Source: Flavobacterium aurantiibacter (GTDB taxonomy: Bacteria > Bacteroidota > Bacteroidia > Flavobacteriales > Flavobacteriaceae). From it: a DNA stretch of 57,393 bases. A model generated the notes under the pieces. The model saw nothing but the letters and a program-made list of their open reading frames with translations. It was not told the DNA's origin and did not search any database. The DNA is taken from NCBI RefSeq assembly GCF_002251775.1, contig NZ_NOXX01000201.1, positions 431 to 57,823 of the forward strand, read 5' to 3'. The first letter of the stretch is position 1, and each line of letters starts with the position of its first letter. A program made the position numbers and the translations under genes. Below, in pieces: positions 35,454 through 53,284 of the stretch.

Positions 35454-36719
35454 TTAATATTTTTTGAGAATCAAACAAGCATTTACATCTCCAAAACCAA
35501 AACTTGCCTTGGCAATAACATCTAATTTGTGCAGTTTTTTGGTAGGATGAATGCATTCCACTGCAATTCGATTGCTAATTTCGGGATGAATATCTTCTGA
35601 ATTTACGTTTGGATGTAAAAACTGCTCTTTCAATTGCAACACTGCAGCTACTGTTTCTATGGCACCACTTGCGGCCAATGTATGTCCGATAAGTCCTTTT
35701 GTGGCTTGGATTTGAGGAAAATCTGCTCCAGACCTTTGTAAAGCCTGCGTCCAGTTTTCAATTTCGGTACTGTCTTTTATGGTGGCTGTTAGATGTCCGT
35801 TTATCAAGTCAATTTCAGATGCCGAAATACCGGAGTGAATAAGCGCTTGCTGAATGCATCGAATCACAGCAACCGAATTTGGCGCAGTCATGCTTCCGCC
35901 GTTTCGTTGACCGCCACTGTTTACGTGTCCGCCTAAAATCTCTCCATAAATCGGCGCGTTTCTTTCCAAAGCCACGTCTAAGGCTTCTAAAACCAAGGCG
36001 CCGGCTCCCGCCGCTGGAACAAAACCGGAAGCTGTACCCGAAAGCGGTCGCGAACCTTTTTCCGGCTCATCGTTGTGTTTAAACGTACAAACACGCATCG
36101 CATCAAAGCCTCCCCAAATGTACGGGCCGCTATCACTGCTGCTTCCTGCCAAAATACGATCGGCTTTTCCAGTGGCAATCCGTTCCGCGGCAGCGAGAAT
36201 ACTTTCAGTTCCCGTAGCACAAGCACTTGAATTCGAGGTGTTACAATTTCCCAAGCCAAGCTTCCCTCCTACGTACGCACTTACGGCACTACTCATGGTT
36301 TGAATTACCGCCGAACTTCCCAATCTTCGCGTTTGAAGTGCATCGATTTGAAGAATGCTTTCGCGGAATTTACCGACACCCAAACTTCCGTTTCCGAAAA
36401 TAATTCCGCTTTCCCAACGTGGATGCGCTGTTTCGATTGATAACCCCGCGTCGTTCCATGCTTCCAACGCTGCTAAAACGCCATAAACAAAGCCTGTGGA
36501 TTGTAAATTTCGGCGTTCGATCTCCGAAAAAACAGATTCGAGTACTGTATTTTCGAATGTTGGCGTACCTGAAATGCGACATGAAAATTGAAGAGCTTCC
36601 AGCTCAGGATCGAACGAAATTCCCGAAGCACCCGTTCGTAAGGCATCGCTAAAATTCTGTATTCCAACAGCATTTGGCGCAACAACTCCTAATCCGGTTA
36701 TGACTACTCTCCTATTCAT
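35454..36719 (-). CDS. Beta-ketoacyl-ACP synthase, KAS II-like
   Basis: A 421-residue condensing enzyme of the FabF/KAS II type. The nucleophile Cys167 in NSSACATGTES, catalytic His309 (INGHLTAT) and Lys341/His346 (KGLIGHTLAASG) are all present, so the Cys-His-His site is complete. The canonical HGTGT loop reads HLTAT, an unusual change that may alter substrate choice. It overlaps the dehydratase gene by 8 bases. Probable role: elongation of an acyl-ACP starter for the polyketide. Confidence 0.86.
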   Translation of the reverse strand: MNRRVVITGLGVVAPNAVGIQNFSDALRTGASGISFDPELEALQFSCRISGTPTFENTVLESVFSEIERRNLQSTGFVYGVLAALEAWNDAGLSIETAHPRWESGIIFGNGSLGVGKFRESILQIDALQTRRLGSSAVIQTMSSAVSAYVGGKLGLGNCNTSNSSACATGTESILAAAERIATGKADRILAGSSSDSGPYIWGGFDAMRVCTFKHNDEPEKGSRPLSGTASGFVPAAGAGALVLEALDVALERNAPIYGEILGGHVNSGGQRNGGSMTAPNSVAVIRCIQQALIHSGISASEIDLINGHLTATIKDSTEIENWTQALQRSGADFPQIQATKGLIGHTLAASGAIETVAAVLQLKEQFLHPNVNSEDIHPEISNRIAVECIHPTKKLHKLDVIAKASFGFGDVNACLILKKY

Positions 36720-37164
36720 TTGGATTAAAATCGGTTAACATTCCTGAAATACTTCCTCTCGCTAAAACATCGCCACTTTCATTGAACAAAGAAACATCGC
36801 ACTTTAATTTTTCAAATCTAAAATATACTTTCTTTGATTTTACTGTGAGTTTATCTCCTGGAAAACTGGACTTTAAAAAGTTAATTTCAGTTGAAGTAAG
36901 TACGCATATCTTGTTATTATACAATGCATTATGATTTATATAAATCCCTAAACAAACTACTCCTATTTGTGCCATAATTTCGGTATGAATAACACCGGGC
37001 GTAATCGGAAAATCTTTAAAATGTCCCTGATAGAAATACGCATCTTCGGGCAATCGGTAATTTCCGGTGATCTCATTTTCGGATACCGACGTTATTTCAT
37101 CAACAAACAAAAATGGTTTTCGGTACGGCAGCTGAGCCAGAATATAGGTGTTTGCATTCATCAT
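36712..37164 (-). CDS. FabZ/FabA-like 3-hydroxyacyl-ACP dehydratase
   Basis: A 150-residue hotdog-fold protein. The FabZ active site is visible: His48 in YQGHFKDFPITPGV and Glu62 in TEIMAQIG, matching the His-Glu dyad. It could dehydrate a 3-hydroxyacyl-ACP, leading to an unsaturated chain. No dedicated ketoreductase is encoded in the operon, so that step, if it occurs, may be borrowed from fatty acid synthesis (FabG). It starts one base after the type III PKS stop codon. Confidence 0.83.
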   Translation of the reverse strand: MMNANTYILAQLPYRKPFLFVDEITSVSENEITGNYRLPEDAYFYQGHFKDFPITPGVIHTEIMAQIGVVCLGIYINHNALYNNKICVLTSTEINFLKSSFPGDKLTVKSKKVYFRFEKLKCDVSLFNESGDVLARGSISGMLTDFNPNE

Positions 37165-37165
37165 T

Positions 37166-38218
37166 TTAAAATTCGATTAGTAGGCGTTGCGCGGTAAAAC
37201 CCGGACCAAAACTCAGCATCAAACCAAGTTCGCCCGACTTTGGTTTCGATTTTAAAACTTCTTCCAAAACAAATAAAACCGTTGCGCTCGACATGTTGCC
37301 AAAGCGCGACAATACTGATTTTGTTGCGTTTAGATTCTTTCCCAAATCCCCAAAAAGTGCTTCGACGGTTTGAATAATCTTCTTCCCACCTGGATGAAAA
37401 ATAAGGTGATTAATCTGATCGATAGTGCGTTTGTTCTTTTCTAAAAATGGGTGTATGATGTTCGGAAAATGCTCGGCAATCGTATCTGGAACTTCCACAT
37501 CTAAAACCATTTTCAGACCGCCTTCAACCAAATCAAATCCCATCATGTGTTCTTTGTCAAAGAAGTGATACATTTCGTGGCTCAGAATTTTAGGATGTGT
37601 AACTTCTTCACTGTCAGAAAGTAAAACGCAGGCAGCACCATCACCAAAAATGGCCGCGCTAACCATATTAGCCATGCTAAAGTCGTCGAGTTGAAATGTT
37701 GCCGAAGGACTTTCGAATGCCACAATTGCTGCCTTTTTACCTGGGTTTGCTTTGAGAAAATGAGTTGCATAAATCAATGCACTCACGCCTGCTACACAAC
37801 CCATTTCGGTTACGGGAAGCCGCACAACATCTTGCTTAAGTCCAACTTTATTAATCAAATACGCATCTAAAGATGGAATCATAATTCCGGTGCAGCTTAC
37901 AGTAATGATGTAATCGAGTTCCTCGGGATTCCAATTTGCTTGTTGTAAAGCTTGTTCAAGGACGCGTGTTCCGAGTGTTATTGCAGCTTCCTTGTAGATA
38001 CGGTTCTTTTGTGCGAAAGTATCGGCAGTAAATACTGACACCGGATCCATAATGGCATAGCGTTGATCGACCAGAGCACTCTCGAATATTTTTACCACTT
38101 TACGAATAAACCGGTCGTCTTGGCCGTGCAGCCACTGTTCCAAAAAAGGAATGATTTCGGCAGTTTTCCTAGTAAACTCGGGAACTGCGGTAGCTACTGC
38201 ACTTATTTGTACACTCAT
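37166..38218 (-). CDS. Type III polyketide synthase (chalcone/stilbene synthase family)
   Basis: A 350-residue homodimeric condensing enzyme. The triad is complete: Cys141 in TEMGCVAGVSAL, His275 in LIFHPGGKK, Asn308 in RFGNMSSAT; the closing GxGPG-type loop is LSFGPGFTAQR. Such enzymes extend an acyl starter with malonyl-CoA and cyclise it to resorcinols, pyrones or phloroglucinols. Flanking methyltransferase and flavoprotein genes recall the Streptomyces srsABC set that makes alkylresorcinols and their quinones. It overlaps the methyltransferase by 4 bases. Exact starter and product unknown. Confidence 0.92.
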   Translation of the reverse strand: MSVQISAVATAVPEFTRKTAEIIPFLEQWLHGQDDRFIRKVVKIFESALVDQRYAIMDPVSVFTADTFAQKNRIYKEAAITLGTRVLEQALQQANWNPEELDYIITVSCTGIMIPSLDAYLINKVGLKQDVVRLPVTEMGCVAGVSALIYATHFLKANPGKKAAIVAFESPSATFQLDDFSMANMVSAAIFGDGAACVLLSDSEEVTHPKILSHEMYHFFDKEHMMGFDLVEGGLKMVLDVEVPDTIAEHFPNIIHPFLEKNKRTIDQINHLIFHPGGKKIIQTVEALFGDLGKNLNATKSVLSRFGNMSSATVLFVLEEVLKSKPKSGELGLMLSFGPGFTAQRLLIEF

Positions 38219-38913
38219 GTTTTATAGATGATCCATTGGTAGCGGTACGCCCACCTCCAACGAATGCTGAATTTAGTGAAATTTAGTTGCTTGGCGTAAC
38301 GCAAAAAATCAGCTTTTTTGAAACCCCGTAAAATCGAAACTAGTCCGTCGGATGTCGACATTCGGTTTAAACGGAAAACAAACGCCAAAGCTGTGAACAA
38401 ATAATACGCTTGTTTAGACCGATGTAAATCATTGATTCCCAACCCGATATTTGCTTTCTCATAATATTTTCGAATCACCTCCAGCAACAATTCGTCTTCA
38501 AAATGATGCAAGGTTAATGTGCAAATTACAATATCAATGGGTTCATCGGGAACTACCTGTAGAAAATCGGAACAGCTATAGCGAATCGAACTATCAGATA
38601 GTTTAATTGCATGATTTATAGTGGCTTGATTCCCGTCGATTCCCGTTAGACGAACATTTAAGTTACGTTTCTGAGCCCAAATTTTTATGGTTCTGAGCAT
38701 GTCGCCGTTTCCGCAACCTAAATCAACAATATGTACTTCCTTTTGATTTTTGTTTCGAAGAAGTTGTTCAATTCCGTTAATTGTAACCCGATTCCCTCCT
38801 AAAATTTGATTGATCCACGCAATTTTATCGAGTGCGTCTGTCAGCTCCGAACCTTCTAAATTCATGTCGTCCATGATTTCCGGTTCTGTAGAGCGCGTTC
38901 GAGTACTTATCAT
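38215..38913 (-). CDS. SAM-dependent class I methyltransferase
   Basis: A 232-residue Rossmann-type methyltransferase. Motif I is IVDLGCGNGDML (63-74), followed by an acidic strand (LTGIDGN) and the motif-IV-like IDIVICTLTLHHFED. It overlaps its neighbours by 4 bases on each side. By comparison with srs-type clusters it would O- or C-methylate the polyketide ring. Its C-terminus is basic and aromatic (RWAYRYQWI), possibly contacting a lipid substrate or the membrane. Confidence 0.85.
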   Translation of the reverse strand: MISTRTRSTEPEIMDDMNLEGSELTDALDKIAWINQILGGNRVTINGIEQLLRNKNQKEVHIVDLGCGNGDMLRTIKIWAQKRNLNVRLTGIDGNQATINHAIKLSDSSIRYSCSDFLQVVPDEPIDIVICTLTLHHFEDELLLEVIRKYYEKANIGLGINDLHRSKQAYYLFTALAFVFRLNRMSTSDGLVSILRGFKKADFLRYAKQLNFTKFSIRWRWAYRYQWIIYKT

Positions 38914-40031
38914 GTGGATTCTTGTTTGCCGTGCGTTTGTTTGATAACGAATTTCAACAACTGCGGGTACCTCACGAAGATAGGGAACAATTTGTCGGCA
39001 ATGACTTGATTTTGGAAAACTTTAGAGATTTGTCGGCCCATCCATAATCGTCCTGAAAACGCCTTGTTCCAATCTTTTTGATACATTTTCTCGACACGTA
39101 TTCGATTTATTTTTGTGGGTTCGGGATATTTTGTCAGTATTTCCGAAATCAAACGCGCACTTTTTATGGCCATTGCCATTCCGTTTCCACAAAGCGGATG
39201 TATCAAACCGGCAGAATCGCCAATCATTAAGATATGTTTTTCTGATTTGGTTTTCTTTTCAAAAGAAATTCCGCTGATGGCAATTGGTTTTTCAAAGGTG
39301 GAAGTGCTTTTTTCGAAGATTTCTCGAAGCGGCGCATTTTTAAAAAGAACGTTTTTAATTAATTCGGATATGGTTTTGTTTTGCTCGAGCAACTCTTGTT
39401 TGGCAAGAAAGCAAATATTTAATTCGTTGTTTTCGATTTTAGAAACGCCGCAGTAACCGCCGGTAAAATGGTATAATCCAACGATGTGTTCGGGGAAATC
39501 GCCTTTGTAGTGTGCTTTGACCGCAATCCAATCTGCATTTTTATAGGTGTGCTTTCGCTGAAATTGAACATCGACAACACTTTTCTTTCCCAAAGCGTTT
39601 AAAACGTAATCGGCTGTTAGTGTCTGATCACTGCGAATTGCAATAGTGAATACATTTTCATGGAAGCTGATGTTGTCTATTTTTTCAAAAATAAAGTCGA
39701 CGCCAATAGCTTTCGCGCGTTGGTACAGCAGTGAATCGAGGGCAAATCGACTGATTCCCAGACCTCCAAGTGGCAATGTACACTCCAATTGCTTACCGTT
39801 TTCCAACACAAATCGCAGTGTGTCAAGATTTTTCGGTTGTAAAGACAAAATATCCACACCTATTTGCCGCAAGTAAGAAACTACTTCATTAGACAAATAT
39901 TCGCCACACATTTTGTGATGCGGATACTTATTTTTTTCGATTACCGTAACATCAAAACCATTCATACGCAGGTGAATCGCGGCAGTTAAACCGGCTAATC
40001 CGCCTCCCGCGATCACAATTTTTGGTTTCAT
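38910..40031 (-). CDS. FAD-dependent oxidoreductase, UbiH/geranylgeranyl-reductase-like
   Basis: A 373-residue flavoprotein. The FAD Rossmann motif IVIAGGGLAGLTAAIHL is at residues 5-21 and the second FAD motif GDSAGLIHPLCGNG at 271-284. HKMCGEYLS near residue 40 is common in the geranylgeranyl reductase-like group. First gene of the operon, overlapping the methyltransferase by 4 bases. It may hydroxylate the phenolic ring toward a quinone, as SrsC-type hydroxylases do, or reduce a double bond; the sequence does not decide between them. Confidence 0.85.
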   Translation of the reverse strand: MKPKIVIAGGGLAGLTAAIHLRMNGFDVTVIEKNKYPHHKMCGEYLSNEVVSYLRQIGVDILSLQPKNLDTLRFVLENGKQLECTLPLGGLGISRFALDSLLYQRAKAIGVDFIFEKIDNISFHENVFTIAIRSDQTLTADYVLNALGKKSVVDVQFQRKHTYKNADWIAVKAHYKGDFPEHIVGLYHFTGGYCGVSKIENNELNICFLAKQELLEQNKTISELIKNVLFKNAPLREIFEKSTSTFEKPIAISGISFEKKTKSEKHILMIGDSAGLIHPLCGNGMAMAIKSARLISEILTKYPEPTKINRIRVEKMYQKDWNKAFSGRLWMGRQISKVFQNQVIADKLFPIFVRYPQLLKFVIKQTHGKQEST

Positions 40032-42078: not shown

Positions 42079-42107
42079 TTTGCAAAAGCTATTTTTTATT
42101 TAATTTG
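42079..42107 (+). promoter_or_regulatory. Promoter of the aromatic catabolic operon
   Basis: TTTG at 42079-42082, 17 bases, then TTAATTTG at 42100-42107 (one mismatch to TAnnTTTG). It ends 17 bases before the ATG at 42125 and overlaps a GTG at 42107 that would otherwise be read as a start. Confidence 0.5.
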
Positions 42108-42124
42108 TGGAAAAACAATCCAAA

Positions 42125-42730
42125 ATGATAATCAAACCGGAAGAACTCGATTTCAAATCGGTTTATAAGTTGCTCACCGGACTTGTAATTCCCAGACCTA
42201 TTGGTTGGGTAGCTACTGTCAGTGAAGACGGTGTGCACAATTTAGCACCTTTCTCTTTTTTCAATGCCGTGAGTGCCGATCCGCCTACGCTCATGTTTTC
42301 GGCATCTAACAGCCCGAATGCCAATAAAGATACTTCTCGTAATGCCCTTCAAACAGGTGAGTTTGTCGTTAATATGGTTACCGAGAATTTAGTTGAACAG
42401 ATGAACGATACGGCAGCACCGATTCCTTCCCACGAAAGTGAGTTTGATTATGCGAAGATCGCTTATGCAGAAAGTACCGTAGTGAAACCGCGTCGTGTGG
42501 CAAATGCACCGATTTCGTTTGAATGTAAGGTTATTCATCATCATCACATCGATGGACAACGCGGTGGAAGTATGATGATTCTCGGAGAAATCGTGATGAT
42601 TCATATAAACGATCAAATTGTGGACGAGAACTATCACACCGATTTAGAAGTTTACCAGCCAATTTCGCGTTTAGCGGGAGCTTTTTATGCACGCTTAGGC
42701 GATCAGTTTGTTTTAAAACGCGCACAATGA
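42125..42730 (+). CDS. Flavin reductase-like (FMN-binding split-barrel) protein
   Basis: 201 residues from the ATG at 42125. A split beta-barrel flavoprotein of the DIM6/NTAB type: PRPIGWVATVSEDGVHNLAPFSFFNAVSADPPTLMFSAS is the typical FMN-binding stretch. Members reduce flavin with NAD(P)H or oxidise small substrates. It overlaps the next gene by 4 bases and opens a five-gene block with ATGA overlaps throughout. In this setting it may supply reduced flavin or act on a pathway intermediate; the fused monooxygenase/OYE next to it has its own flavins. Confidence 0.85.
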   Translation: MIIKPEELDFKSVYKLLTGLVIPRPIGWVATVSEDGVHNLAPFSFFNAVSADPPTLMFSASNSPNANKDTSRNALQTGEFVVNMVTENLVEQMNDTAAPIPSHESEFDYAKIAYAESTVVKPRRVANAPISFECKVIHHHHIDGQRGGSMMILGEIVMIHINDQIVDENYHTDLEVYQPISRLAGAFYARLGDQFVLKRAQ

Positions 42731-44976
42731 AAATAGCAGTAATTGGCGGTGGTCCAGGCGGATTATACTTTTCGATTTTACTCAAAAAACAACAACCTAC
42801 GTTCGAAATTTCGGTTTTTGAACAAAATAAAGCCGATGATAGCTTTGGTTTTGGTGTTGTTTTTTCAGATGAAACACTAAGTGAATTTCTTCAAAAAGAT
42901 CAAAAATCATACGATTTAATAAAGAATTCGTTTGCTTATTGGGACGATCTCGACGTGGTTCTCAACGGGAAATCGGTTCGAATTTCTGGAAACGGATTTT
43001 GCGGCTGTTCCCGGAAAACCCTACTCAAACTCTTGCAGCAACGCGCCTTAGAAGAAGGTGTGAACTTGCATTTCGAAACAAGTATTGAACCCGACACGGC
43101 TGTTTTAGCATACGACTTAATTGTTGCTGCCGACGGAATTGGAAGTAAGTTTAGAACGCAATTTTCCGAGACATTCAAAACCGAGGTTACTTTGCATTCG
43201 AACCGATTTGTGTGGATGGGTTCTACAAAACCCTTAGATGCATTTGCCTACTTTTTTAGAACTACCGCGCACGGTGCCATTGTAGCACACGCCTACCAAT
43301 ACGAAGCCGGAAAAAGTACGTGGATTTTCGAATGTTCGGAAACAACATGGAAAAATGCTGGATTCGATAAACTCGACGAAGCGCAAACAGTAGCAGTTTT
43401 ACAGGATTTATTTGCTGAAGAACTCGACGGACACGGCTTGCTCACAAACAAATCAATTTGGCGTCAGTTTCCCGAAGTTCACAACCAAAATTGGCATCAC
43501 AACAACATCGTTTTGCTCGGCGATTCGAAAGCTACCGCACATTTTTCCATTGGTTCGGGTACCAAATTAGCCATGGAATCGGCTATTGCTTTGGCAGAAG
43601 CGGTTCAAACACATCAAACAAATTTGCCTGAAGTTTATACACAATATGAACAAAATCGGCGTAAGCGTGTAGAAGCTATACAACATGCAGCAGTAGTTTC
43701 ATTGAAATGGTTTGAATCGATGGATTTGCAAGTGAAAAAGCCGTTTGAAGCTTTTGCTATGGCGGTAATGACACGTGCTAAAAAAGTAACCTACGAAAAC
43801 TTGCGCATCCGCGACCGTAAATTCACTGATTTTGTAGCGCAGGCGTTTGCACAGAAGAATGTCGCATCAATTAGCAGTCCAGCTTTTCAACCCTTTAAAA
43901 TCAACGGCTGTACGCTGTCGAATCGCATTGCCATGAGCGCTATGGGGCAATATTGTGCAGAAAACGGACTTCCAAACGATTGGCATTTCCAACACTATAC
44001 GTCACGTGCACTTCAAGGACTTGGTTTAATCATTACCGAGGCAACAGCGGTCAGTGCAGGTTCGAGAATTGCTGAGACTTGCACGGGTATTTACAATTCC
44101 GAACAGCAAGAATCGTGGCAAAACATCAATCGTTTCATACACGAAAATTCGGATACTAAAATCTGGATTCAATTGGCGCATGCGGGTCGGAAATCGGTCA
44201 TTGAACCCGTTGGACCTTCCGCGATTGCCTTCCATGAAAATGGAAAAACACCGGAAATTTTATATGAAAGCGATATAGAACGCATCACAAACGATTTTGT
44301 GGCTGCCGCAGAACGAGCTGTTTCTGCCGGTTTTGACGGTATCGAAATTCAGATGCATCACGGATTTTTGCTCGGCAGTTTTATTTCACTTTTGACAAAT
44401 CTTCGAAACGACGATTACGGAGGAAGCATAGAAAACCGTATGCGATTTCCGATTCATGTTTTGAAAGCAATTCGAACAGTTGTGGCTAAAGACTTTCCTA
44501 TTTCTGTGCGAATTTCGGCAACCGATTGGCATCCCGAAGGCGTTTCAAAATCTGATATTCAGACTTTTGTTTCAACTTTGAAAGAAAATGGTGCAGATAT
44601 CATCAATGTTTCGACAGGAAATACGCATGCGCAACAGCAGGTAAAAGTTACGCCAATGTGGCAAGTTCCTTACAGCGATGAAATTCGAAATGCTTGTAAT
44701 GTAAAGACAATAACAGCAGGTGAAATAACGGATATCGATCAGATTAATACCATTTTACTTGCCGAGAAAGCCGATTTGATTGCCTTAGGAAAGCCACTTT
44801 TATTGAATCCCGGATTTGTAATGAAAGCTGCTGCTTATGAAGGTGTTACTTTGAATAAGATTCCAAAAGCTTATCAAAGATCGTGGGATTCTCTACTCAA
44901 AACAACGCAGTTTGAACGCATACAGCTCGAACGTATGAAACAAGCTTTAAAACCAAAATCACATAAACCACAATGA
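42727..44976 (+). CDS. Bifunctional aryl-CoA 5-hydroxylase/OYE (2-aminobenzoyl-CoA or salicylyl-CoA type)
   Basis: A 749-residue fusion. Residues 1-~375 are an FAD aromatic hydroxylase (IAVIGGGPGGLYFSILL; VLLGDSKATAHFSIGSG as second FAD motif). Residues ~385-735 are an old-yellow-enzyme TIM barrel (NRIAMSAMGQYCAENGL, IQLAHAGRKS, FDGIEIQMHHGFLLGSF, TNLRNDDYGGSIENRMRF). This architecture is that of 2-aminobenzoyl-CoA monooxygenase/reductase and of proteins annotated salicylyl-CoA 5-hydroxylase. It should hydroxylate the ring para to the ortho substituent (C5) of an aryl-CoA. Whether the OYE half reduces the product here is unclear, since a ring-cleaving dioxygenase follows. Confidence 0.88.
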   Translation: MKIAVIGGGPGGLYFSILLKKQQPTFEISVFEQNKADDSFGFGVVFSDETLSEFLQKDQKSYDLIKNSFAYWDDLDVVLNGKSVRISGNGFCGCSRKTLLKLLQQRALEEGVNLHFETSIEPDTAVLAYDLIVAADGIGSKFRTQFSETFKTEVTLHSNRFVWMGSTKPLDAFAYFFRTTAHGAIVAHAYQYEAGKSTWIFECSETTWKNAGFDKLDEAQTVAVLQDLFAEELDGHGLLTNKSIWRQFPEVHNQNWHHNNIVLLGDSKATAHFSIGSGTKLAMESAIALAEAVQTHQTNLPEVYTQYEQNRRKRVEAIQHAAVVSLKWFESMDLQVKKPFEAFAMAVMTRAKKVTYENLRIRDRKFTDFVAQAFAQKNVASISSPAFQPFKINGCTLSNRIAMSAMGQYCAENGLPNDWHFQHYTSRALQGLGLIITEATAVSAGSRIAETCTGIYNSEQQESWQNINRFIHENSDTKIWIQLAHAGRKSVIEPVGPSAIAFHENGKTPEILYESDIERITNDFVAAAERAVSAGFDGIEIQMHHGFLLGSFISLLTNLRNDDYGGSIENRMRFPIHVLKAIRTVVAKDFPISVRISATDWHPEGVSKSDIQTFVSTLKENGADIINVSTGNTHAQQQVKVTPMWQVPYSDEIRNACNVKTITAGEITDIDQINTILLAEKADLIALGKPLLLNPGFVMKAAAYEGVTLNKIPKAYQRSWDSLLKTTQFERIQLERMKQALKPKSHKPQ

Positions 44977-46562
44977 TGATTGCCGACCGTTTTGCATACG
45001 ATGGATTGCCAGAAGCGAATCGCTTAGCTCATAATCCGTTTGTGGAATTTCGCCGTTTTAAAGGAAATTGCACGACTTTGTTTTTGGAAAAGAATATTGA
45101 GACGGGTTGTGGAGATAACATTGCTTTAATTTCTGAAAATCATTCATTTACGTATTTTCAATTACTGGAATTAGTTAATCAAGCTGCTCATGAACTGACA
45201 AACATTTATGGAATTCAGTCTGGAAATCGCGTGTTACTTCGTGGGTACAACAGTGCCGCATTTGCCGTGTATTGGTTAGCAATTGCACGTATTGGAGCTA
45301 TAGCAGTGGCAACTATGCCGCTTTTGCGGAAGAAGGAACTAGAAGTTATAGCAGAAATGGCTGCTGTGAGCTTGATGATTTGCGAAGACGAGTTAGCTTC
45401 AGAACTCGATTCGTTTTCAAAAAATGAAAATACAAAACTCCTCCTTTTCAATCGCTCTGATTTTAATGTTACTTTAAAGAAATACAATTTTAGTACCAAT
45501 TTCCAGCCATTTATTGCCAGTGAAGAACTGTTGGCCTTGATAGGTTTTACTTCAGGAACTACGGGAAAACCAAAAATGACTGCCCATTATCACAGTGATG
45601 TAGCAGCTATTTGCGAAGGATTTCCGAAATATTCGTTGAAACCTAAAAGAGGAGAGATTTTCGCTGGGAGTCCGCCGCTAGGTTTTACCTTCGGATTAGG
45701 CGGCTTGTTGCTGTTTCCTTTGTATTATGGAGCTACTTCCCTACTCATTCCAAAACCAGCTCCAGAAGTTTTGCTGCAAGCTATCGAAGAACAAGGCGTT
45801 ACAACTTGTTTTACTGCACCAACCGCTTGGCGTGTCATGTGTGAAAAGGCAGCCGATTATAACATCGACACCTTAAAATATTGCGTTTCAGCAGGCGAAG
45901 CATTGTCCGCTAAAGTAGCAAAAGATTGGGAAGAAGTTACGGGAATTCCGATTTTGGATGGTATAGGCGCAACAGAAATGCTGCATATTTTCATCGGATC
46001 TTCACACGAAAAACGGAAAATCGGTTTTACAGGAGTTCCGATACCAGGTTACGAAGCGACATTATTCGACGACTTTGGCAATGAAATACAGGAGATTAAT
46101 AAAGCAGGTCGACTAGCCGTTCGTGGAATTACGGGTTGCAAATATCTTTTCAACACCGAAAAACAAGACGCTTACGTACAAAACGGTTGGAATTTTACAG
46201 GTGATATTTACCAAAAAGACGCCGATGGCTTTTTCCAGTTTGTAGCACGTGGCGATGACATGATTATTTCTTCCGGCTACAACATAGCAGCTATCGAAGT
46301 CGAACAAGTACTTTTGGAACACGAGTTAATTAAAGAATGTGCTGTGGTAGGAAAACCCGACGAAAACAGAGGTATGCTCGTTGCTGCTTATGTTGTTTTG
46401 CATGAATCGGTTTCCGGAAACGACGAACTCAAAATACAAATACAAAATTGGTTTAAAGAACATGCCGCTCCGTACAAATATCCGAGACATATTGAATTTG
46501 TAGCGACACTTCCCAAAACGGAAACAGGAAAAATTCAACGATTTAAACTTCGAACGTCATGA
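44973..46562 (+). CDS. Aryl-CoA ligase (benzoate/2-aminobenzoate-CoA ligase family)
   Basis: A 529-residue AMP-forming ligase. Adenylation motif GFTSGTTGKPK (191-201), then GSPPLGFTFGLGGLLLFPL, DGIGATEMLHIF (the A5 motif in the benzoate-CoA ligase style) and the C-terminal KTETGKIQRFKLR with catalytic lysine. GATEMLHIF(I) resembles benzoate-type ligases. It would activate an aromatic acid to its CoA thioester, the substrate of the fused hydroxylase, whose gene it overlaps by 4 bases. Confidence 0.87.
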   Translation: MMIADRFAYDGLPEANRLAHNPFVEFRRFKGNCTTLFLEKNIETGCGDNIALISENHSFTYFQLLELVNQAAHELTNIYGIQSGNRVLLRGYNSAAFAVYWLAIARIGAIAVATMPLLRKKELEVIAEMAAVSLMICEDELASELDSFSKNENTKLLLFNRSDFNVTLKKYNFSTNFQPFIASEELLALIGFTSGTTGKPKMTAHYHSDVAAICEGFPKYSLKPKRGEIFAGSPPLGFTFGLGGLLLFPLYYGATSLLIPKPAPEVLLQAIEEQGVTTCFTAPTAWRVMCEKAADYNIDTLKYCVSAGEALSAKVAKDWEEVTGIPILDGIGATEMLHIFIGSSHEKRKIGFTGVPIPGYEATLFDDFGNEIQEINKAGRLAVRGITGCKYLFNTEKQDAYVQNGWNFTGDIYQKDADGFFQFVARGDDMIISSGYNIAAIEVEQVLLEHELIKECAVVGKPDENRGMLVAAYVVLHESVSGNDELKIQIQNWFKEHAAPYKYPRHIEFVATLPKTETGKIQRFKLRTS

Positions 46563-46975
46563 AATCTTTTATAAAAACAGAGAAAATTCGCTTCAGGCAT
46601 TGCGATTACGCCGGAATTGTGTTCTATCCACGCTATTTTGAAATGCTCAATGATTTAGTAGAAGATTTCTTTGCCGAAGTTTTAGAACGTCCGTTTTCCA
46701 AAATACATGAAACAAACGGTATACCAACGGTGCAGCTGCAAACGCGTTTTTCCGCTCCGGCGCGAATTGGCGACGTAGTTATCAAAAAACTAAACGTTCA
46801 AAAGTTAGGTTCATCGTCGGTCGTATTTAAATTTTCCTTCACGGGAGAAAACGACCAAGAAATCTTATCAGGCGAAGCAACTTTGGTGAACGTGCGTTTA
46901 GCAACAGCAACGGAAGCTATGAAATCGGAACCCTTTGACAGAAAAACCATTGAACTTTTAAATCAATATGTATGA
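46559..46975 (+). CDS. 4-Hydroxybenzoyl-CoA-thioesterase-like hotdog thioesterase
   Basis: A 138-residue hotdog protein. HCDYAGIVFYPRYFEMLND contains the catalytic aspartate region of the 4HBT family. It overlaps both neighbours by 4 bases. It should hydrolyse the hydroxylated aryl-CoA to the free acid (gentisate or 5-hydroxyanthranilate), which the dioxygenase at 48.2 kb can cleave. The arrangement of ligase, CoA-level hydroxylase and thioesterase shows CoA used as a temporary handle. Confidence 0.86.
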   Translation: MKSFIKTEKIRFRHCDYAGIVFYPRYFEMLNDLVEDFFAEVLERPFSKIHETNGIPTVQLQTRFSAPARIGDVVIKKLNVQKLGSSSVVFKFSFTGENDQEILSGEATLVNVRLATATEAMKSEPFDRKTIELLNQYV

Positions 46976-47931
46976 GTTTAGAACTTCCGAAATTTAAAGC
47001 GGCTGTAGTCCAAGCATCGCCTGTTTTCCTAAATGCTGAAAAAACGGTTGATAAAGTGCTCAATATCATGCGTGAAGTAGCGCGAAACGGCGCTCAATTA
47101 GTAGCATTTCCAGAAGTTTTTATCTGTGCATATCCGTATTGGAACTGGATACTCACGCCTGTTCAAGGAAGCAAATGGTTTGAACTTTTATATAAATCGT
47201 CGTTAACGGCTGATGATATTCTTATTCAGAAAATCCAAAAATCAGCAAAGGAACTTGATTTGACAATTGTTATTGGCATGAACGAACGCGGAACTAGCTT
47301 TGGCGAACTGTACAATACGAATTTGATAATCGACAACACCGGCGAGATCGTTGGAAAGCACCGAAAGTTAGTACCCACCTGGGCGGAAAAACTTACATGG
47401 ACTTCTGGCGATGGTTCTTCCTTGCGCGTATATCCAACAAAAACGGGAAATATTGGAACTTTAGCTTGTGGAGAAAACACCAATACTTTGGCGCGATTTA
47501 CTTTGTTGGCACAAGACGAAAACGTACATATTGCCAACTACATTTCCTTACCTGTGGCGCCTCCTGATTATGATATGGCCGATGCTATAAAGATTCGAGC
47601 GGCTGCACATTCGTTTGAAGGGAAGCTATTTACGTTAGTTTCGTGTTCAACCATCGGTGCCGACGCAGTTAAGATGTTGGAAGCCGATTGTCCGAATGCT
47701 GCCGACTTACTAAGTCGTGAGCACGCTGCTTTTTCCGGAATTATCGGTCCGACGGGAGTTCCGATTTCCGAACCGTTAATCGACCAAGAAGGAATTGTCT
47801 ACGGAGAAATCGACTTAAGTAAATGTATCCAACCCAAGCAAATGCACGATATTTTAGGACATTACAATCGTTTCGATATTTTTGAACTCCGTGTGAATAC
47901 AGCGAAAACTAAGAGAATAACGTTTCTTTAA
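46972..47931 (+). CDS. Nitrilase-superfamily carbon-nitrogen hydrolase
   Basis: A 319-residue carbon-nitrogen hydrolase with complete triad Glu48 (FPEVF), Lys132 (KHRKLVPT) and Cys166 (LACGENTN). The CGEN form of the Cys motif occurs in enzymes annotated as nitrilases, so it may turn an aryl nitrile into the acid that enters the pathway. An alternative fits the cluster better: hydrolysis of an amide (maleamate-like) formed if the cleaved ring carries an ortho amino group. It overlaps the thioesterase gene by 4 bases, last gene of the first block. Confidence 0.85.
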   Translation: MSLELPKFKAAVVQASPVFLNAEKTVDKVLNIMREVARNGAQLVAFPEVFICAYPYWNWILTPVQGSKWFELLYKSSLTADDILIQKIQKSAKELDLTIVIGMNERGTSFGELYNTNLIIDNTGEIVGKHRKLVPTWAEKLTWTSGDGSSLRVYPTKTGNIGTLACGENTNTLARFTLLAQDENVHIANYISLPVAPPDYDMADAIKIRAAAHSFEGKLFTLVSCSTIGADAVKMLEADCPNAADLLSREHAAFSGIIGPTGVPISEPLIDQEGIVYGEIDLSKCIQPKQMHDILGHYNRFDIFELRVNTAKTKRITFL

Positions 47932-48166
47932 CCTGATAGTTCGGCCGACTCTTAATTAGTTTAAAAGAAGCTCGTATGATTGACAATTCTACCACACCTT
48001 TACTTTCAATTACAAATAGCTAAATGATGGTGCTATTCAGTGGAAAAGAACATTTTCTTGCGTATCACATGCAACAGCAAAATTGGAATGCCATAAACGA
48101 ATCAATTTTAGAATAATTTTCGAGCTACTTTGAGTTTAATAATTTAATACTTTTGAATACTACCAA
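47932..48166. promoter_or_regulatory. Spacer with promoter of the ring-cleavage block
   Basis: 235 bases without a credible gene; a 30-codon frame at 48023 is not supported. Near the end TTTG (48129-48132), 15 bases, and TACTTTTG (48148-48155) form a plausible Bacteroidota promoter 11 bases before the ATG at 48167. The second block can therefore be transcribed separately. Confidence 0.5.
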
Positions 48167-49246
48167 ATGAATAATAATCATTCAGACGACCAACTAGGAA
48201 GAGCGCGAGTTAAATCTTCGCCTGAACTCGAAGCCTATTACAAAGAACTAGAAGGCTTGGGTGCTGGTGCTTTATGGACCGTTGCCAACGACATTGAACC
48301 TTGGGAACCTCGCTCGTATTCTGTTCCAATGTTATGGAAATATGATGAACTACGTGATTTAGCTTTAAAAAGTGCCGAATTGGTTACACCCGAACAAGCA
48401 GGTCGACGCGTGGTTTATCTCGTTAACGACAATCGAAAAGCCGTAAGTGCAGCTGTTGGTTGGTTGTACACAGGAATTCAAGTTACAAAACCCGGCGAAA
48501 GTACTTCGGCACACCGTCACAAAGCTTCGGCACTGCGTTTCATTATGGAAGGAAAAGGCGGCTACACGGTTGTCGACGGACATAAAATAACCTTTGAAGT
48601 AAACGATTTTGTAATCACTCCAAACAGCACTTGGCACGAACACGGCGTTGCCGAAGATGGCGAAACCTGTGTTTGGCAAGACGGCTTAGATATTCCGCTG
48701 GTAAATGCTCTGGAAGCGAATGATTATGCTGTTTACGACGGAAAACAAGAATTAAAGTACCCTGTTAATTACTCCGTTTTAAATTACGGAAATTCAGGTT
48801 TTTACCCTACTCATGAAAATTGGAATAAGCCGTATTCGCCGTTATTTAAATTTGAATGGAAGAAGATTTATCCGGCTTTAGTCGAGGCAGCAAAAGTTAA
48901 TCCGATTAATGCGTACGACGGTGTAAAAATGCGCTACAGCAACCCGATTACGGGTGGACACGTCATGCAAACCATGGGCGCTTCCATGCAATTACTTCCT
49001 GCTGGATTTTCAGGAAAGCGTCACCGACACACGGGTTCGTTTGTTTATCAAGTGGCGAAAGGCTCCGGATATTCGATTATCGCCGGAAAGCGTTTCGATT
49101 GGAAAACCCGCGATATATTTTGCGTGCCGTCTTGGGCGTGGCACGAACATCACAATGCATCAGATACCGAAGATGCCTGTTTATTCTCCTTCAACGATTT
49201 ACCAGTTATCGAATCACTAGGTTTGTACCAAGAACAAGCCGATTAA
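48167..49246 (+). CDS. Gentisate 1,2-dioxygenase-like bicupin ring-cleavage enzyme
   Basis: A 359-residue bicupin, the usual length for gentisate 1,2-dioxygenase. Fe(II) ligands of the first cupin: His116 and His118 (SAHRHKASALRF) and the WHEHG pair (His157/His159). The second cupin has KRHRHTGSFVYQVAKGSG and WHEHHN. It would cleave the bond between the carboxyl-bearing C1 and the ortho-substituted C2, giving maleylpyruvate from gentisate. With 5-hydroxyanthranilate the same cleavage would give an amide at C2. Which one is used cannot be read from the sequence. It lies 10 bases before the FAH gene. Confidence 0.85.
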   Translation: MNNNHSDDQLGRARVKSSPELEAYYKELEGLGAGALWTVANDIEPWEPRSYSVPMLWKYDELRDLALKSAELVTPEQAGRRVVYLVNDNRKAVSAAVGWLYTGIQVTKPGESTSAHRHKASALRFIMEGKGGYTVVDGHKITFEVNDFVITPNSTWHEHGVAEDGETCVWQDGLDIPLVNALEANDYAVYDGKQELKYPVNYSVLNYGNSGFYPTHENWNKPYSPLFKFEWKKIYPALVEAAKVNPINAYDGVKMRYSNPITGGHVMQTMGASMQLLPAGFSGKRHRHTGSFVYQVAKGSGYSIIAGKRFDWKTRDIFCVPSWAWHEHHNASDTEDACLFSFNDLPVIESLGLYQEQAD

Positions 49247-49256
49247 AAATTGCATT

Positions 49257-50159
49257 ATGAAATTAAATAGTTTCCTTTTTCACGAACGTGAAACCTTGGG
49301 TGTTGTTTTGGGCGATTTTGTGGTTAATACACGCCTATTGAACGCACATTATCCAGAAATTCCTGTAACGATGCTTGAACTAATCGATCGCGGACAAGCA
49401 GCGAAAGATCAGCTACAATTGCGTATAAATCGTTTGAAAGAAGGAGAATTTGTTCAAGTAAGTCATAAGCTTTCTGAAATCCAGTTGCTGGCTCCGATTC
49501 CAAAACCAAGGAAGAATATTTTTGGTATCGGATTGAATTACACCGAACACGTAGCCGAAAGTGCGCGAACACTCGATACTTCAAACGAATTGCCGAAACA
49601 GCCCGTCATTTTTTCTAAGCCACCAACTACAGTTACCGCACATCAAACCGCAGTTCTCTTAAATCGAAAAATTACGAATCAGCTGGATTGGGAAGTCGAA
49701 TTAGCGGTTGTAATTGGAACAGGTGGTAAAAACATAAGCAAAGAAACTGCACATAATCACATTTTTGGTTACACCATTATTAACGACATCTCAGCACGCG
49801 ATTGTCGACGTGCCGGACAATGGATAGTTTCCAAAGGTCAAGACACTTTTGCACCTATGGGACCTGCCCTACTTACTGCCGATGAAATTTCAGATCCACA
49901 GGATTTAGACTTACGACTTACCGTAAACGGCATTGTAAAACAAAACAGCAATACCAAGTTTATGCTTTTCAGTATTGCCGATTTAATTTCAGATTTAAGT
50001 ACCGTTTTTACTTTGGAGCCTGGCGACATTATTGCAACAGGAACTCCCGCTGGTGTTGGTGCCGGAAGAAATCCGCAGGAATGGCTGAAAGACGGCGACC
50101 TTATTGAAGCCAGCGTGGAACGATTGGGAACGCTTGTAAATCACGTAAAAGAAATTTAA
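49257..50159 (+). CDS. FAH-family hydrolase (maleyl/fumarylpyruvate hydrolase-like)
   Basis: A 300-residue fumarylacetoacetate hydrolase-family enzyme. The FAH core starts at about residue 82 (KNIFGIGLNYTEHVAES) with acidic metal ligands (LDWEVELAVVIG, NDISARDCRR) and ends TGTPAGVGAG. It should split the C-C bond of the ring-cleavage product to release pyruvate and maleate (or maleamate). Because the next gene is a maleate isomerase and no maleylpyruvate isomerase is present, direct hydrolysis of the cis product is the likely route. Stop and next start overlap (TAATG). Confidence 0.86.
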   Translation: MKLNSFLFHERETLGVVLGDFVVNTRLLNAHYPEIPVTMLELIDRGQAAKDQLQLRINRLKEGEFVQVSHKLSEIQLLAPIPKPRKNIFGIGLNYTEHVAESARTLDTSNELPKQPVIFSKPPTTVTAHQTAVLLNRKITNQLDWEVELAVVIGTGGKNISKETAHNHIFGYTIINDISARDCRRAGQWIVSKGQDTFAPMGPALLTADEISDPQDLDLRLTVNGIVKQNSNTKFMLFSIADLISDLSTVFTLEPGDIIATGTPAGVGAGRNPQEWLKDGDLIEASVERLGTLVNHVKEI

Positions 50160-50917
50160 TGAGTTCAGAAAAAACATACCGTATTGGCCAGATCGTACCT
50201 TCGTCGAACGTGACGATGGAAACCGAAATCCCTGCTATTTTTCGAGCTAGAGAAAGCATTTTACCCGAACGCTTTACGTTTCATTCGAGTAGAATGCGCA
50301 TGAAAAAAGTTACCAAAGAGGAACTAGAAGCCATGGATGCCATGAGCTTGAAATGTGCGGTCGAATTGTCAGATGCACGAGTAGATGTAATGGGTTATGC
50401 CTGTTTAGTAGCCATTATGAGTATGGGAAATGGGTATCATTGCGTTTCCGAGAAAAATCTTCATGCCGAAACTGTTGCCAACGGTGCTCCTACTCCAATA
50501 ATTACGAGCGCAGGCGCGTTGGTTAGCGGTTTACAAACCTTGAAAGCCAAAAAAATCAGTATCATCACGCCGTACATGCGTCCGTTAACCGATTTAGTAG
50601 TTGGTTATTTAGAACACCAAGGATTTACCGTAATCGATTCCATTGCTTTGGAGATTCCCGATAATTTGGAAGTTGCCGCGCAAAATCCCATGAATTTGTT
50701 GGAAATATCCGAACGGTTAAATATCGCTGGAGCCGATGTGGTGGTAGCTTCTGCCTGTGTGCAAATGCCTTCTCTAGCGGCTGTCGATCCGTTACAGCAA
50801 AAACTAGGATTGCCCGTTACCAGCGCAGCGGTTTCAACTACCTACGAAATGATGAAAGCACTCGGTATTGAACGAAAATCGACTTTAGGAGGCGAACTTC
50901 TTTCCGGTAAGTACTAA
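50159..50917 (+). CDS. Maleate cis-trans isomerase
   Basis: A 252-residue Asp/Glu-racemase-superfamily enzyme, close in sequence pattern to NicE of the nicotinate pathway (YRIGQIVPSSNVTMETEIP; ERFTFHSSRMRMKKV). Both catalytic cysteines are present at the positions I recall for NicE: Cys82 (GYACLVAIM) and Cys200 (ASACVQMPSL). It converts maleate to fumarate, which enters the TCA cycle through fumarase. Its presence at the end of the block fixes the pathway's end as maleate, fumarate and pyruvate. Confidence 0.9.
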   Translation: MSSEKTYRIGQIVPSSNVTMETEIPAIFRARESILPERFTFHSSRMRMKKVTKEELEAMDAMSLKCAVELSDARVDVMGYACLVAIMSMGNGYHCVSEKNLHAETVANGAPTPIITSAGALVSGLQTLKAKKISIITPYMRPLTDLVVGYLEHQGFTVIDSIALEIPDNLEVAAQNPMNLLEISERLNIAGADVVVASACVQMPSLAAVDPLQQKLGLPVTSAAVSTTYEMMKALGIERKSTLGGELLSGKY

Positions 50918-51248: not shown

Positions 51249-53284
51249 TTGAAGTACATAGTCATGCGTTTTCTCTGTCTCACGTTAATTGCGCTAGCAC
51301 AAATATGCTTTTCCCAAGAAATTGAAAGCAGTACACCGTCTTTAAAGAAAATCGACAGTTTAAAAGCGGTGTTGCGACAAGCAAAGAATTCAAAAAACGA
51401 CCGGCTCGCGTATTATTTAGCCGAAGATTATCGCTTCATAAACGCCGATAGCGCAACACATTACGCACTTCTGGCAGAAAAATGGGCGGGAAAAAATCCA
51501 AAAAAGCGCAGTAAGATTTACCAACTATTGGCAAGTATTAAGCGTATTTCTGCCGATTATACTAGCTCAGAGAACTACTTCAAACGCGCCATCGAGCAGG
51601 CGAAAATAGCCAAAGATGTTCCTCAGGAAATTGCCGTACTAAACGATTACGGCATCATGCTCGAAAATCGGAGTCAGTACACCGAAGCACTCGATTTATA
51701 CCTAAAAGCCTTGCGACTCAGCGAAAAGCAAAACGATTTAATCGGAGCAGCAAATGCGCAACTTAACATCGGATTTGTGTATTTGAGTCAGGATGAAATC
51801 GACGAAGCGTACAATTGGTTTAAAAAGTCGCTCGCCAACAGCATAAAAGCCAAGTACAAAAAGGGCGAAGCTTGGAACTACAGCAATATTGCTATCGTGC
51901 TCGACCGAAAAGGACAGTACGAAGAATCGAGAAAATACTATTGGAAAGGAGCGGCCTTCATTGATAAAGAAAAGAACAAACGCGAGTATTCACGGATTTA
52001 CTTCAATGTGGCCAACACGTATAAATCCGAGCGTCGCCATAAAGAAGCCACCTTCTATTTTTTGAAATCGCTCGAATTAAAACGCTTGTTTAACGATCCG
52101 TTTGACTTAGCATCAACCTTAGCAAAGTTGAGCGTTTCATGCCGGCAAACCGGAGATTACACCAAAGCTATCGCCTACGCAGAAGAATCGCTTGTCATGG
52201 CACGAAAAGCTGAATCGGCCGATTTGGAAATCAGTTCGTTAATGGCACTTTCCGAAGCGTACGAAGCTGTGGGCGATTACAAAAAAGCACTCTCGTACGA
52301 AAAACAAGTTCCGGATTTAATGGACAATTTGTACAATGAGGAAAAGCTTGAAAAGCGCACCGAAATGATTGAAAAGTACGAGTTGGAAAAAAAGGCCCAA
52401 GAAAACAAATTACTGAAACAAAAAGCCGACTTAGCCGCGGCTACGCTTCACAAAAAAAATCTAACGATCGTAACGTTTTCCCTAGTTATTGCCCTAGTGC
52501 TGGTCGTCCTTTTGTCGGTGTATCTCCAATCGCGCAAGAAAGGGAAACTAAATGCCTTACTCGTACAACAGAAAACGGAGATCGAAACTAAAAATTCGTT
52601 GCTTGAAGAAGCTGTTTTCGAGAAAAATAATCTGATGAATATCGTTGCACACGATTTGCGAGCCCCTCTCGATAAGGTAAAAGGATTGAGCGATTTGCTG
52701 CGAGATGCTGACACCGATCTGGAAACTCAGCAACAGTGTTTGGATTTAATTACTGTTGTAACCGACCAAGGACGCCGTCTTATCGACGATCTGTTATGTC
52801 TGGTAAGGCCGAATCGACCGATTTCGTTGTGGAAAAAACTGAAGTTTCTGCTCGGCCATTTTTGGAAAATTTAGCCAAAACTTATCAAATGTCGGCGCAG
52901 GAAAAGGGAATCACATTGCTTTGCGAAGCGATTGAAACCACTTTTTATACGGATGCCGACAAGCTACAACGCATTTTAGACAATCTGATTTCCAATGCTT
53001 TAAAGTTCTCACCAAAGGAAAAGCGCGTCTGGATTTGCTTTTCAGAACGCGACGATGCACGGATTTTCTCGGTTCGCGATGAAGGACCGGGAATTAGTGA
53101 TACCGATCAAACGAAGTTATTTCGCAAATTTCAGAAACTAACTGCCCGCCCAACCAACGGCGAAGCGTCGACAGGTTTAGGTCTAGCGATCGTAAAACAA
53201 CTCGCAGAGCGCCTAAACGGCAGCATCGAAGTATCGAGCACCTTAGGCGAAGGAACCACTTTTTCTCTGGTTTTAAAGAAGTAG
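51249..53284 (+). pseudogene. TPR sensor histidine kinase split by a one-base frameshift
   Basis: Two frames form one protein. Part 1 (51249-52874) has a signal peptide, about six TPR repeats (~70-360), a coiled coil, one membrane helix (about residues 400-420) and the dimerisation box with His468 in IVAHDLRAPLDKVKGL. It then runs into a wrong-frame tail after LIDDLLCL. Part 2, in the +1 frame to 53284, resumes with GKAESTDF and carries the ATPase domain (LDNLISNALKFSP, DEGPGISD, STGLGLAIVKQL). One missing base near 52800-52804 explains the break. Either a recent pseudogene or a sequencing/assembly error; no response regulator is adjacent. Confidence 0.85.

Follow-up and report, generated by a model that had tools for sequence, protein, structure and literature searches.

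A stretch of 57,393 nucleotides of Flavobacterium aurantiibacter DNA (NCBI RefSeq assembly GCF_002251775.1, contig NZ_NOXX01000201.1, positions 431 to 57,823; the whole stretch is called the window below) carries an operon of eight genes that appears to encode the breakdown of an aromatic acid. The host is a common freshwater bacterium. ORF calls and Pfam assignments place eight intact open reading frames (ORFs), all on the + strand, at window positions 42107-50917 (Table 1). The first five genes are joined by 4-base overlaps, so the carbon-nitrogen (CN) hydrolase, the fifth of them, is part of the CoA block. A gap of 235 bases follows, and then the cupin, FAH hydrolase and isomerase genes, with a 10-base spacer and a 1-base overlap between them. 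The preliminary description of this DNA had named seven genes in two linked blocks, and all seven are present as intact ORFs with matching Pfam families. Its starting point, 42125, is an internal ATG of a PF01613 flavin-reductase-like ORF that it had not listed. The fusion, the cupin and the CN hydrolase each fall short of the curated NCBIfam score, and their family names are approximate.

Table 1. Genes of the operon, with positions in the window
Gene product and proposed role	Position	Strand	Basis
PF01613 flavin-reductase-like protein, operon gene 1	42107-42730	+	Pfam E 2.7e-24; 4-base overlap with next gene
Fusion FAD_binding_3 + Oxidored_FMN, candidate anthraniloyl-CoA 5-hydroxylase	42727-44976	+	Pfam/NCBIfam; Gln replaces catalytic His in reductase half
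AMP-binding aryl-CoA ligase, candidate anthranilate-CoA ligase	44973-46562	+	Top PDB match 4WV3
4HBT thioesterase, proposed to free 5-hydroxyanthranilate from CoA	46559-46975	+	Pfam 4HBT_2/4HBT
CN hydrolase, candidate amidase on maleamylpyruvate or maleamate	46972-47931	+	Pfam; Glu, Lys, Cys motifs kept, CGEN for CWE
Double-cupin ring-cleaving dioxygenase, candidate 5-hydroxyanthranilate 1,2-dioxygenase	48167-49246	+	PDB matches; class-specific Gln
FAH-family hydrolase, candidate C-C hydrolase giving pyruvate	49257-50159	+	Pfam FAA_hydrolase E 1.5e-71
Maleate cis-trans isomerase-like protein, Amdase superfamily	50159-50917	+	Top PDB match 4FQ7; both family cysteines

The operon is best read, with a probability of about 0.7, as an aerobic CoA-dependent pathway for anthranilate, which arises from tryptophan and indole, in which the nitrogen is kept on the ring through ring opening. 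In this scheme the ligase would convert anthranilate to anthraniloyl-CoA and the fusion would hydroxylate it at position 5; with the ene-reductase half disabled or altered, aromatic 5-hydroxyanthraniloyl-CoA would be released, from which the thioesterase would generate 5-hydroxyanthranilate. The cupin would cut between the carboxyl-bearing and amino-bearing carbons to give maleamylpyruvate. The FAH hydrolase and the CN hydrolase, acting in either order, would then yield pyruvate, ammonia and maleate, and the isomerase would turn maleate into fumarate. Each reaction is predicted from observed genes, their conservation and co-occurrence, motifs and neighbourhoods. No description of this route was found in the open-access papers searched.

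The closest solved relatives agree with the anthranilate substrate put forward earlier. The ligase, proposed to act on anthranilate, matches anthranilate-CoA ligase 4WV3 (250 bits) ahead of benzoate-CoA ligase 2V7B (214 bits). The isomerase is nearest to maleate cis-trans isomerase 4FQ7 (307 bits), and both cysteines, presumably the catalytic pair of the maleate isomerase family, align. The CN hydrolase retains its Glu, Lys and Cys motifs. The Cys motif reads CGEN in the window, in 81/81 genome loci and in all seven proteobacterial plasmid copies aligned, whereas four of five PDB nitrilases compared have CWE (two of the four are alike over this stretch) and the fifth has CAE. Its score against the Nit6803-type nitrilase family TIGR04048 is 223.4 of 502.6 bits. 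The cupin scores 499 bits against the Ruegeria structure 3BU7 and 250 against E. coli 2D40, and 313.5 of the 442.1 bits set for gentisate 1,2-dioxygenase (TIGR02272). Aligned by eye to 2PHD, it keeps the three Fe-binding His and the gentisate-binding Arg, His and Asp, the residues expected of TIGR02272. By analogy with gentisate dioxygenase chemistry, cleavage of 5-hydroxyanthranilate by such an enzyme would follow the same course and leave an amide. The class is marked by a Gln next to the active-site Asp, at position 174 in the Ruegeria protein: it is present in 15/15 and 77/77 rows (G135 is counted in both sets) versus Leu in all ten ordinary enzymes, and is suggestive only as to substrate.

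A further feature in line with anthranilate lies in the reductase domain of the fusion. As in 2-aminobenzoyl-CoA monooxygenase/reductase, an FAD hydroxylase and an old yellow enzyme (OYE) domain are fused in one ORF. The first catalytic His of the OYE domain is taken here to be His164 of YqjM, in numbering and role, and the His pair plus a Tyr to be the catalytic residues of the ene-reductase. In the window the first His is replaced by Gln and the Tyr by Phe, and the second His is retained. Gln occupies the H164 position in the window, in 73/73 genome loci (L003 included) and in the Caballeronia, Cupriavidus and two Novosphingobium plasmids. For 72 of these 73 genome loci the fetched stretch also includes the cupin; the exception, L046, has the CN hydrolase. 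In all eight fusions whose clusters are without cupin or CN hydrolase the residue is His. It is kept in five fusions of RidA clusters (pAL1, Phyllobacterium, Rhodococcus BG43, Paracoccus and Sagittula) and in three from another Bacteroidota family with no cupin or CN hydrolase nearby, one of them beside an anthranilate-ligase-like gene and RidA. The G454 protein (L126), which consists of the hydroxylase half only, was excluded from these counts.

Gln would be expected in cupin-linked fusions because a ring-cleaving dioxygenase requires an aromatic product, and the substitution may well disable or alter the ene-reductase half. In a tree of 24 rows the Gln proteins do not form one clade, and well-supported branches force two changes of the label, compatible with His having been lost twice, or lost once and regained. 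Genes near related fusions include tryptophan 2,3-dioxygenase (TDO) and kynureninase in Sagittula, a PQS dioxygenase close to another, and the pAL1 ligase beside a third, which we take to be the anthranilate-CoA ligase with measured activity. The Sagittula plasmid operon (L116:9001-18923) holds a His-type fusion, ligase, RidA, TDO and kynureninase, and apparently runs from tryptophan to anthraniloyl-CoA. The related monooxygenase/reductase reportedly gives mainly a non-aromatic keto product, with 5-hydroxyanthraniloyl-CoA formed when NADH is limiting (PMC3534580).

The grouping of the eight genes is widely conserved. When genome contigs were scanned with the CN hydrolase, at least 595 stretches matched and at least 567 of them encoded relatives; 80 loci from other genomes were kept, mostly labelled Flavobacterium, Paenimyroides or Flavobacteriaceae, with L005 as a near twin of the window (97%). 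All eight genes occur in 68/80 loci and are collinear on one strand in each of the 68, so their grouping is not a matter of chance. Ten of the 12 incomplete loci are truncated by contig ends. The remaining two are L068, where the cupin lies ~7 kb further on and the 10 kb fetched contain neither FAH nor isomerase, and L046, where cupin, FAH and isomerase are all absent over the same length. The PF01613 gene is found in 73/80 loci. Another gene, encoding a PF01645 FMN-binding glutamate-synthase-like protein (e.g., L006:7946-9526), occurs in 24/80 loci, in 22 of them between ligase and thioesterase; the protein may handle the ammonia set free.

Of 150 sampled genomes of the genus, 65 have the CN hydrolase and 67 the fusion. 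Every one of the 65 carries the fusion, as do two of the 85 without the CN hydrolase, both incomplete assemblies (76% and 62% complete). Among 149 genomes of the family, a fusion at E<=1e-90 is confined to the window genome (G000) and G135, from another genus, which are also the only genomes with CN hydrolases of >60% identity. In samples of the phylum, a close CN hydrolase occurs in six of 395 genomes and a fusion in eight of 390; all six are among the eight.

The lower genes also form a module outside the operon. Of the ten plasmids that best match the CN hydrolase, nine were examined, and in eight the CN hydrolase, cupin, FAH hydrolase and isomerase lie together (Caballeronia, Ruegeria, Sulfitobacter THAF37, Sagittula, two Shinella, Leisingera and Embleya). 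The module thus spans Bacteroidota, Proteobacteria and an actinomycete. In the ninth, Polaromonas pPNAP04, a CN hydrolase of 49.5% identity with CGEN has no cupin, FAH or isomerase in the fetched stretch; a CGEN CN hydrolase alone therefore does not mark the pathway and was ruled out as a marker. A plasmid search with the cupin gave 17 records at 55-64% identity; the next 43 rows listed, of 159 remaining records, reach at most 40.1%. Fourteen of the 17 close-cupin neighbourhoods were inspected (L087-L094, L097-L102), and 12 contain some CN hydrolase, ~6 kb off in Tistrella; four of these 12 enzymes belong to another subfamily. The two loci without one are Cupriavidus and Sulfitobacter alexandrii; in Cupriavidus taiwanensis, where no CN hydrolase was found, transposase genes come after FAH. 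In Aminobacter, Tistrella and Novosphingobium the cupin class is accompanied by a CN hydrolase of another kind (CWENYM in the three sequences aligned), and the neighbourhood holds no isomerase match. For example, Novosphingobium L101:10294-17410 encodes a flavin-reductase-like protein, the CWENYM CN hydrolase, cupin, FAH, thioesterase and a Gln-type fusion, with no maleate isomerase match.

Seen together, these loci raise, at somewhat better than even odds, the wider prospect of a lower pathway for 5-hydroxyanthranilate, shared across phyla, that opens the ring before the nitrogen is removed. 3BU7 and its class would then be physiological 5-hydroxyanthranilate 1,2-dioxygenases, and the fusions that feed them would have lost the reductase by His-to-Gln replacement, perhaps repeatedly.

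Several neighbourhoods suggest where anthranilate might come from. In G135 (locus L003) the CN hydrolase-cupin-FAH-isomerase set stands back to back with genes for a short-chain dehydrogenase/reductase (SDR), an oxygenase of the styrene-monooxygenase type, a flavin reductase, the fusion, a cyclase (PF04199) and a pair of 2-oxoacid oxidoreductase proteins; a MetA-type porin gene is also present. Five of these kinds of gene (for cyclase, SDR, styrene monooxygenase, flavin reductase and MetA porin) also make up the Providencia indole cluster (PMC9871250), and iif genes convert indole to anthranilate (PMC6221969). Caballeronia pSBC1_4 carries IOR alpha and beta, thioesterase, fusion, cupin, FAH, CN hydrolase, isomerase and isatin hydrolase. 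Against solved isatin hydrolases the G135 cyclase scores 368 bits and the Caballeronia one 461 bits; the product of isatin hydrolase is isatinate (PMC6117287). An IOR-type enzyme acting on isatinate, an aryl 2-oxoacid, would give anthraniloyl-CoA and replace the ligase in such loci. In the auxin iad loci, isatin and isatinic acid lead to anthranilic acid, and IorA/IorB homologues are present (PMC9613470). IOR-type 2-oxoacid oxidoreductase genes recur with the module in L087, L088-L091 and L003/L085, with isatin hydrolase in addition in L003, L087, L090 and L091. The linkage of the module to an iif-type set, isatin hydrolase and 2-oxoacid oxidoreductase gives comparative support to the earlier idea of anthranilate breakdown through an amide intermediate, and in relatives of the window anthranilate may come from indole or isatin as well.

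Queries for iif, IOR and isatin hydrolase had no match in the window itself, and TDO, kynureninase and HAAO are located elsewhere in its genome. The survey of kynureninase co-occurrence suggested earlier proved nearly uninformative. KynU is found in 65/65 CN-hydrolase genomes versus 78/85 others, or 143/150 of the genus; TDO in 63/65 versus 75/85; and HAAO in 62/65 versus 67/85, with one HAAO-negative genome taken as G296 since it is missing among the matches. Because all three are near universal in the genus they say little, and kynureninase was rejected as a discriminating partner.

The operon shares parts with four known systems. With the 2-aminobenzoyl-CoA monooxygenase/reductase pathway of Azoarcus evansii and Arthrobacter Rue61a it has in common the CoA ligase and the FAD hydroxylase/OYE fusion, but it is without a RidA match, its reductase His is Gln, and it has the double cupin, FAH, CN hydrolase and maleate isomerase instead. 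The name of the fusion, the gentisate-dioxygenase-like cupin and the FAH hydrolase recall the CoA-dependent salicylate/gentisate pathway, to which the window adds the CN hydrolase, a separate cupin class (with the Gln beside the active-site Asp) and a ligase nearest anthranilate-CoA ligase. A maleate isomerase-like protein also serves the maleamate-maleate-fumarate end of nicotinate degradation. There the maleamate amidase belongs to another family, whereas the candidate amidase of the window is of the CN-hydrolase family. Anthranilate is also what the iif indole clusters and iad auxin loci deliver, and in relatives of the window genes for isatin hydrolase and IOR-type enzymes are repeatedly found next to the module. 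The window has a ligase and shows no match to these genes, and the available portions of the iif and iad papers do not describe the lower module.

There are three rival explanations. A salicylate pathway running through salicylyl-CoA, gentisyl-CoA, gentisate, maleylpyruvate, maleate and fumarate, with the CN hydrolase either a nitrilase that makes an aromatic acid available from a nitrile or a protein of unrelated function, is improbable. Salicylyl-CoA 5-hydroxylase (NF006101) is the best NCBIfam name of the fusion, at 854 bits against a cut-off of 1078 that it does not reach; the nearest solved relative of the cupin is a characterised gentisate dioxygenase, and nitrilases are the closest relatives of the CN hydrolase, whose Cys motif is CGEN and not CWE. 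The ligase is nearest anthranilate-CoA ligase, and the module occurs in linkage with isatin hydrolase and iif-type genes. The point made earlier that salicylate as substrate would need no CN hydrolase agrees with ordinary gentisate clusters: none of ten, taken from the 43 lower rows of the cupin search with flanks of 6-7 kb, has one by annotation or tblastn, a count limited by flanks shorter than those of the module loci and by the relatedness of the records. These clusters carry instead maleylpyruvate/maleylacetoacetate isomerase or flavoprotein monooxygenases, e.g., 3-hydroxybenzoate 6-monooxygenase.

Anthranilate could also lose its nitrogen before ring opening, by deamination of 5-hydroxyanthranilate to gentisate as proposed for Nocardia opaca in 1968; a gentisate route of anthranilate is on record (PMC4539516). 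The CN hydrolase would then act upstream, e.g., on N-formylanthranilate or N-formylkynurenine. This is unlikely, even though the cupin has a Ruegeria orthologue described as a gentisate enzyme: no deaminase is annotated among the eight conserved genes, and in 8/9 plasmid loci the CN hydrolase remains together with cupin, FAH and isomerase while the set of upper genes differs. Very improbable is the classical monooxygenase/reductase route, in which the fusion dearomatises anthraniloyl-CoA, beta-oxidation-like enzymes take over and the cupin block is separate. The domain fusion is the same as in that class, but the reductase His is replaced and the fusion is collinear with a ring-cleaving dioxygenase in 68/80 loci. 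RidA, which accompanies the class in its operons, gave no match with two queries across the whole window (E 1e-5) or with one query in the 80 loci (E 1e-8); beta-oxidation genes were not searched for.

A number of observations weigh against an anthranilate pathway with late release of nitrogen. By sequence the CN hydrolase falls in the nitrilase branch. The cupin of the Ruegeria cluster is identical to 3BU7, which is listed as a purified and characterised gentisate dioxygenase (PMC4585797), so the class probably accepts gentisate. The active site cannot separate 2-OH from 2-NH2 because the gentisate-binding residues are kept, and it was rejected as proof of substrate. The PF01613 gene is assigned to no pathway step, contrary to the earlier statement that every gene has a job, although it could possibly supply reduced flavin. 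The upper genes of the window are also divergent. Excluding the near twin L005, median identity to other Flavobacterium-type loci is 57% for the fusion and 54% for the ligase; among 40 of those loci the pairwise medians are 73% and 76%, and even the minima, 60% and 66%, exceed the medians of the window. The window fusion has a long branch in the tree. With fusion and ligase so divergent, the substrate is less sure for the window than for the other loci.

Outside the Bacteroidota, seven of the eight module loci inspected have no fusion within the 10-12 kb fetched, Caballeronia alone having one; in the others another hydroxylase must act or the fusion must lie elsewhere. In Sagittula the module is on one plasmid and a His-type fusion on another, and Sulfitobacter alexandrii has the cupin class and RidA with no CN hydrolase. 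On a Shinella plasmid (L092:4096-8621), ORFs 5' of the cupin module resemble, by eye, an acyl-CoA-dehydrogenase-type protein, an esterase and a flavin reductase; they are perhaps an alternative hydroxylase. Since Caballeronia alone has a fusion nearby and the Shinella plasmid has other upstream ORFs, the lower module may combine with more than one upper pathway.

A 2018 review (PMC6221969) notes that, for the gentisate route from anthranilate in indole breakdown, the functional gene had yet to be revealed. The cluster offers a concrete, testable gene set, with the CN hydrolase in 65/150 genomes of the genus and the lower module on proteobacterial plasmids. If the anthranilate pathway proposed here is true, it would provide genes for the anthranilate/indole route via 5-hydroxyanthranilate reported since 1968, without a gentisate intermediate. 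A dioxygenase class of known structure would have its label corrected, and the CN hydrolase, out of place in a salicylate pathway, would be accounted for. The presence of His or Gln in the reductase domain would become a one-residue annotation test for two fates of anthraniloyl-CoA. What would be new relative to the known CoA-dependent anthranilate pathway is the release of the nitrogen as ammonia after ring opening, by way of an amide intermediate.

Two further features flank the operon. Just 3' of it (51249-53284), a one-base frameshift divides a TPR histidine kinase gene into two overlapping ORFs; the gene is a single frame in the near relative L005. On the - strand at 36712-40031 lies a set that by eye looks pigment/polyketide-type, with dehydratase-like, ketosynthase-like, methyltransferase and FAD oxidoreductase genes.

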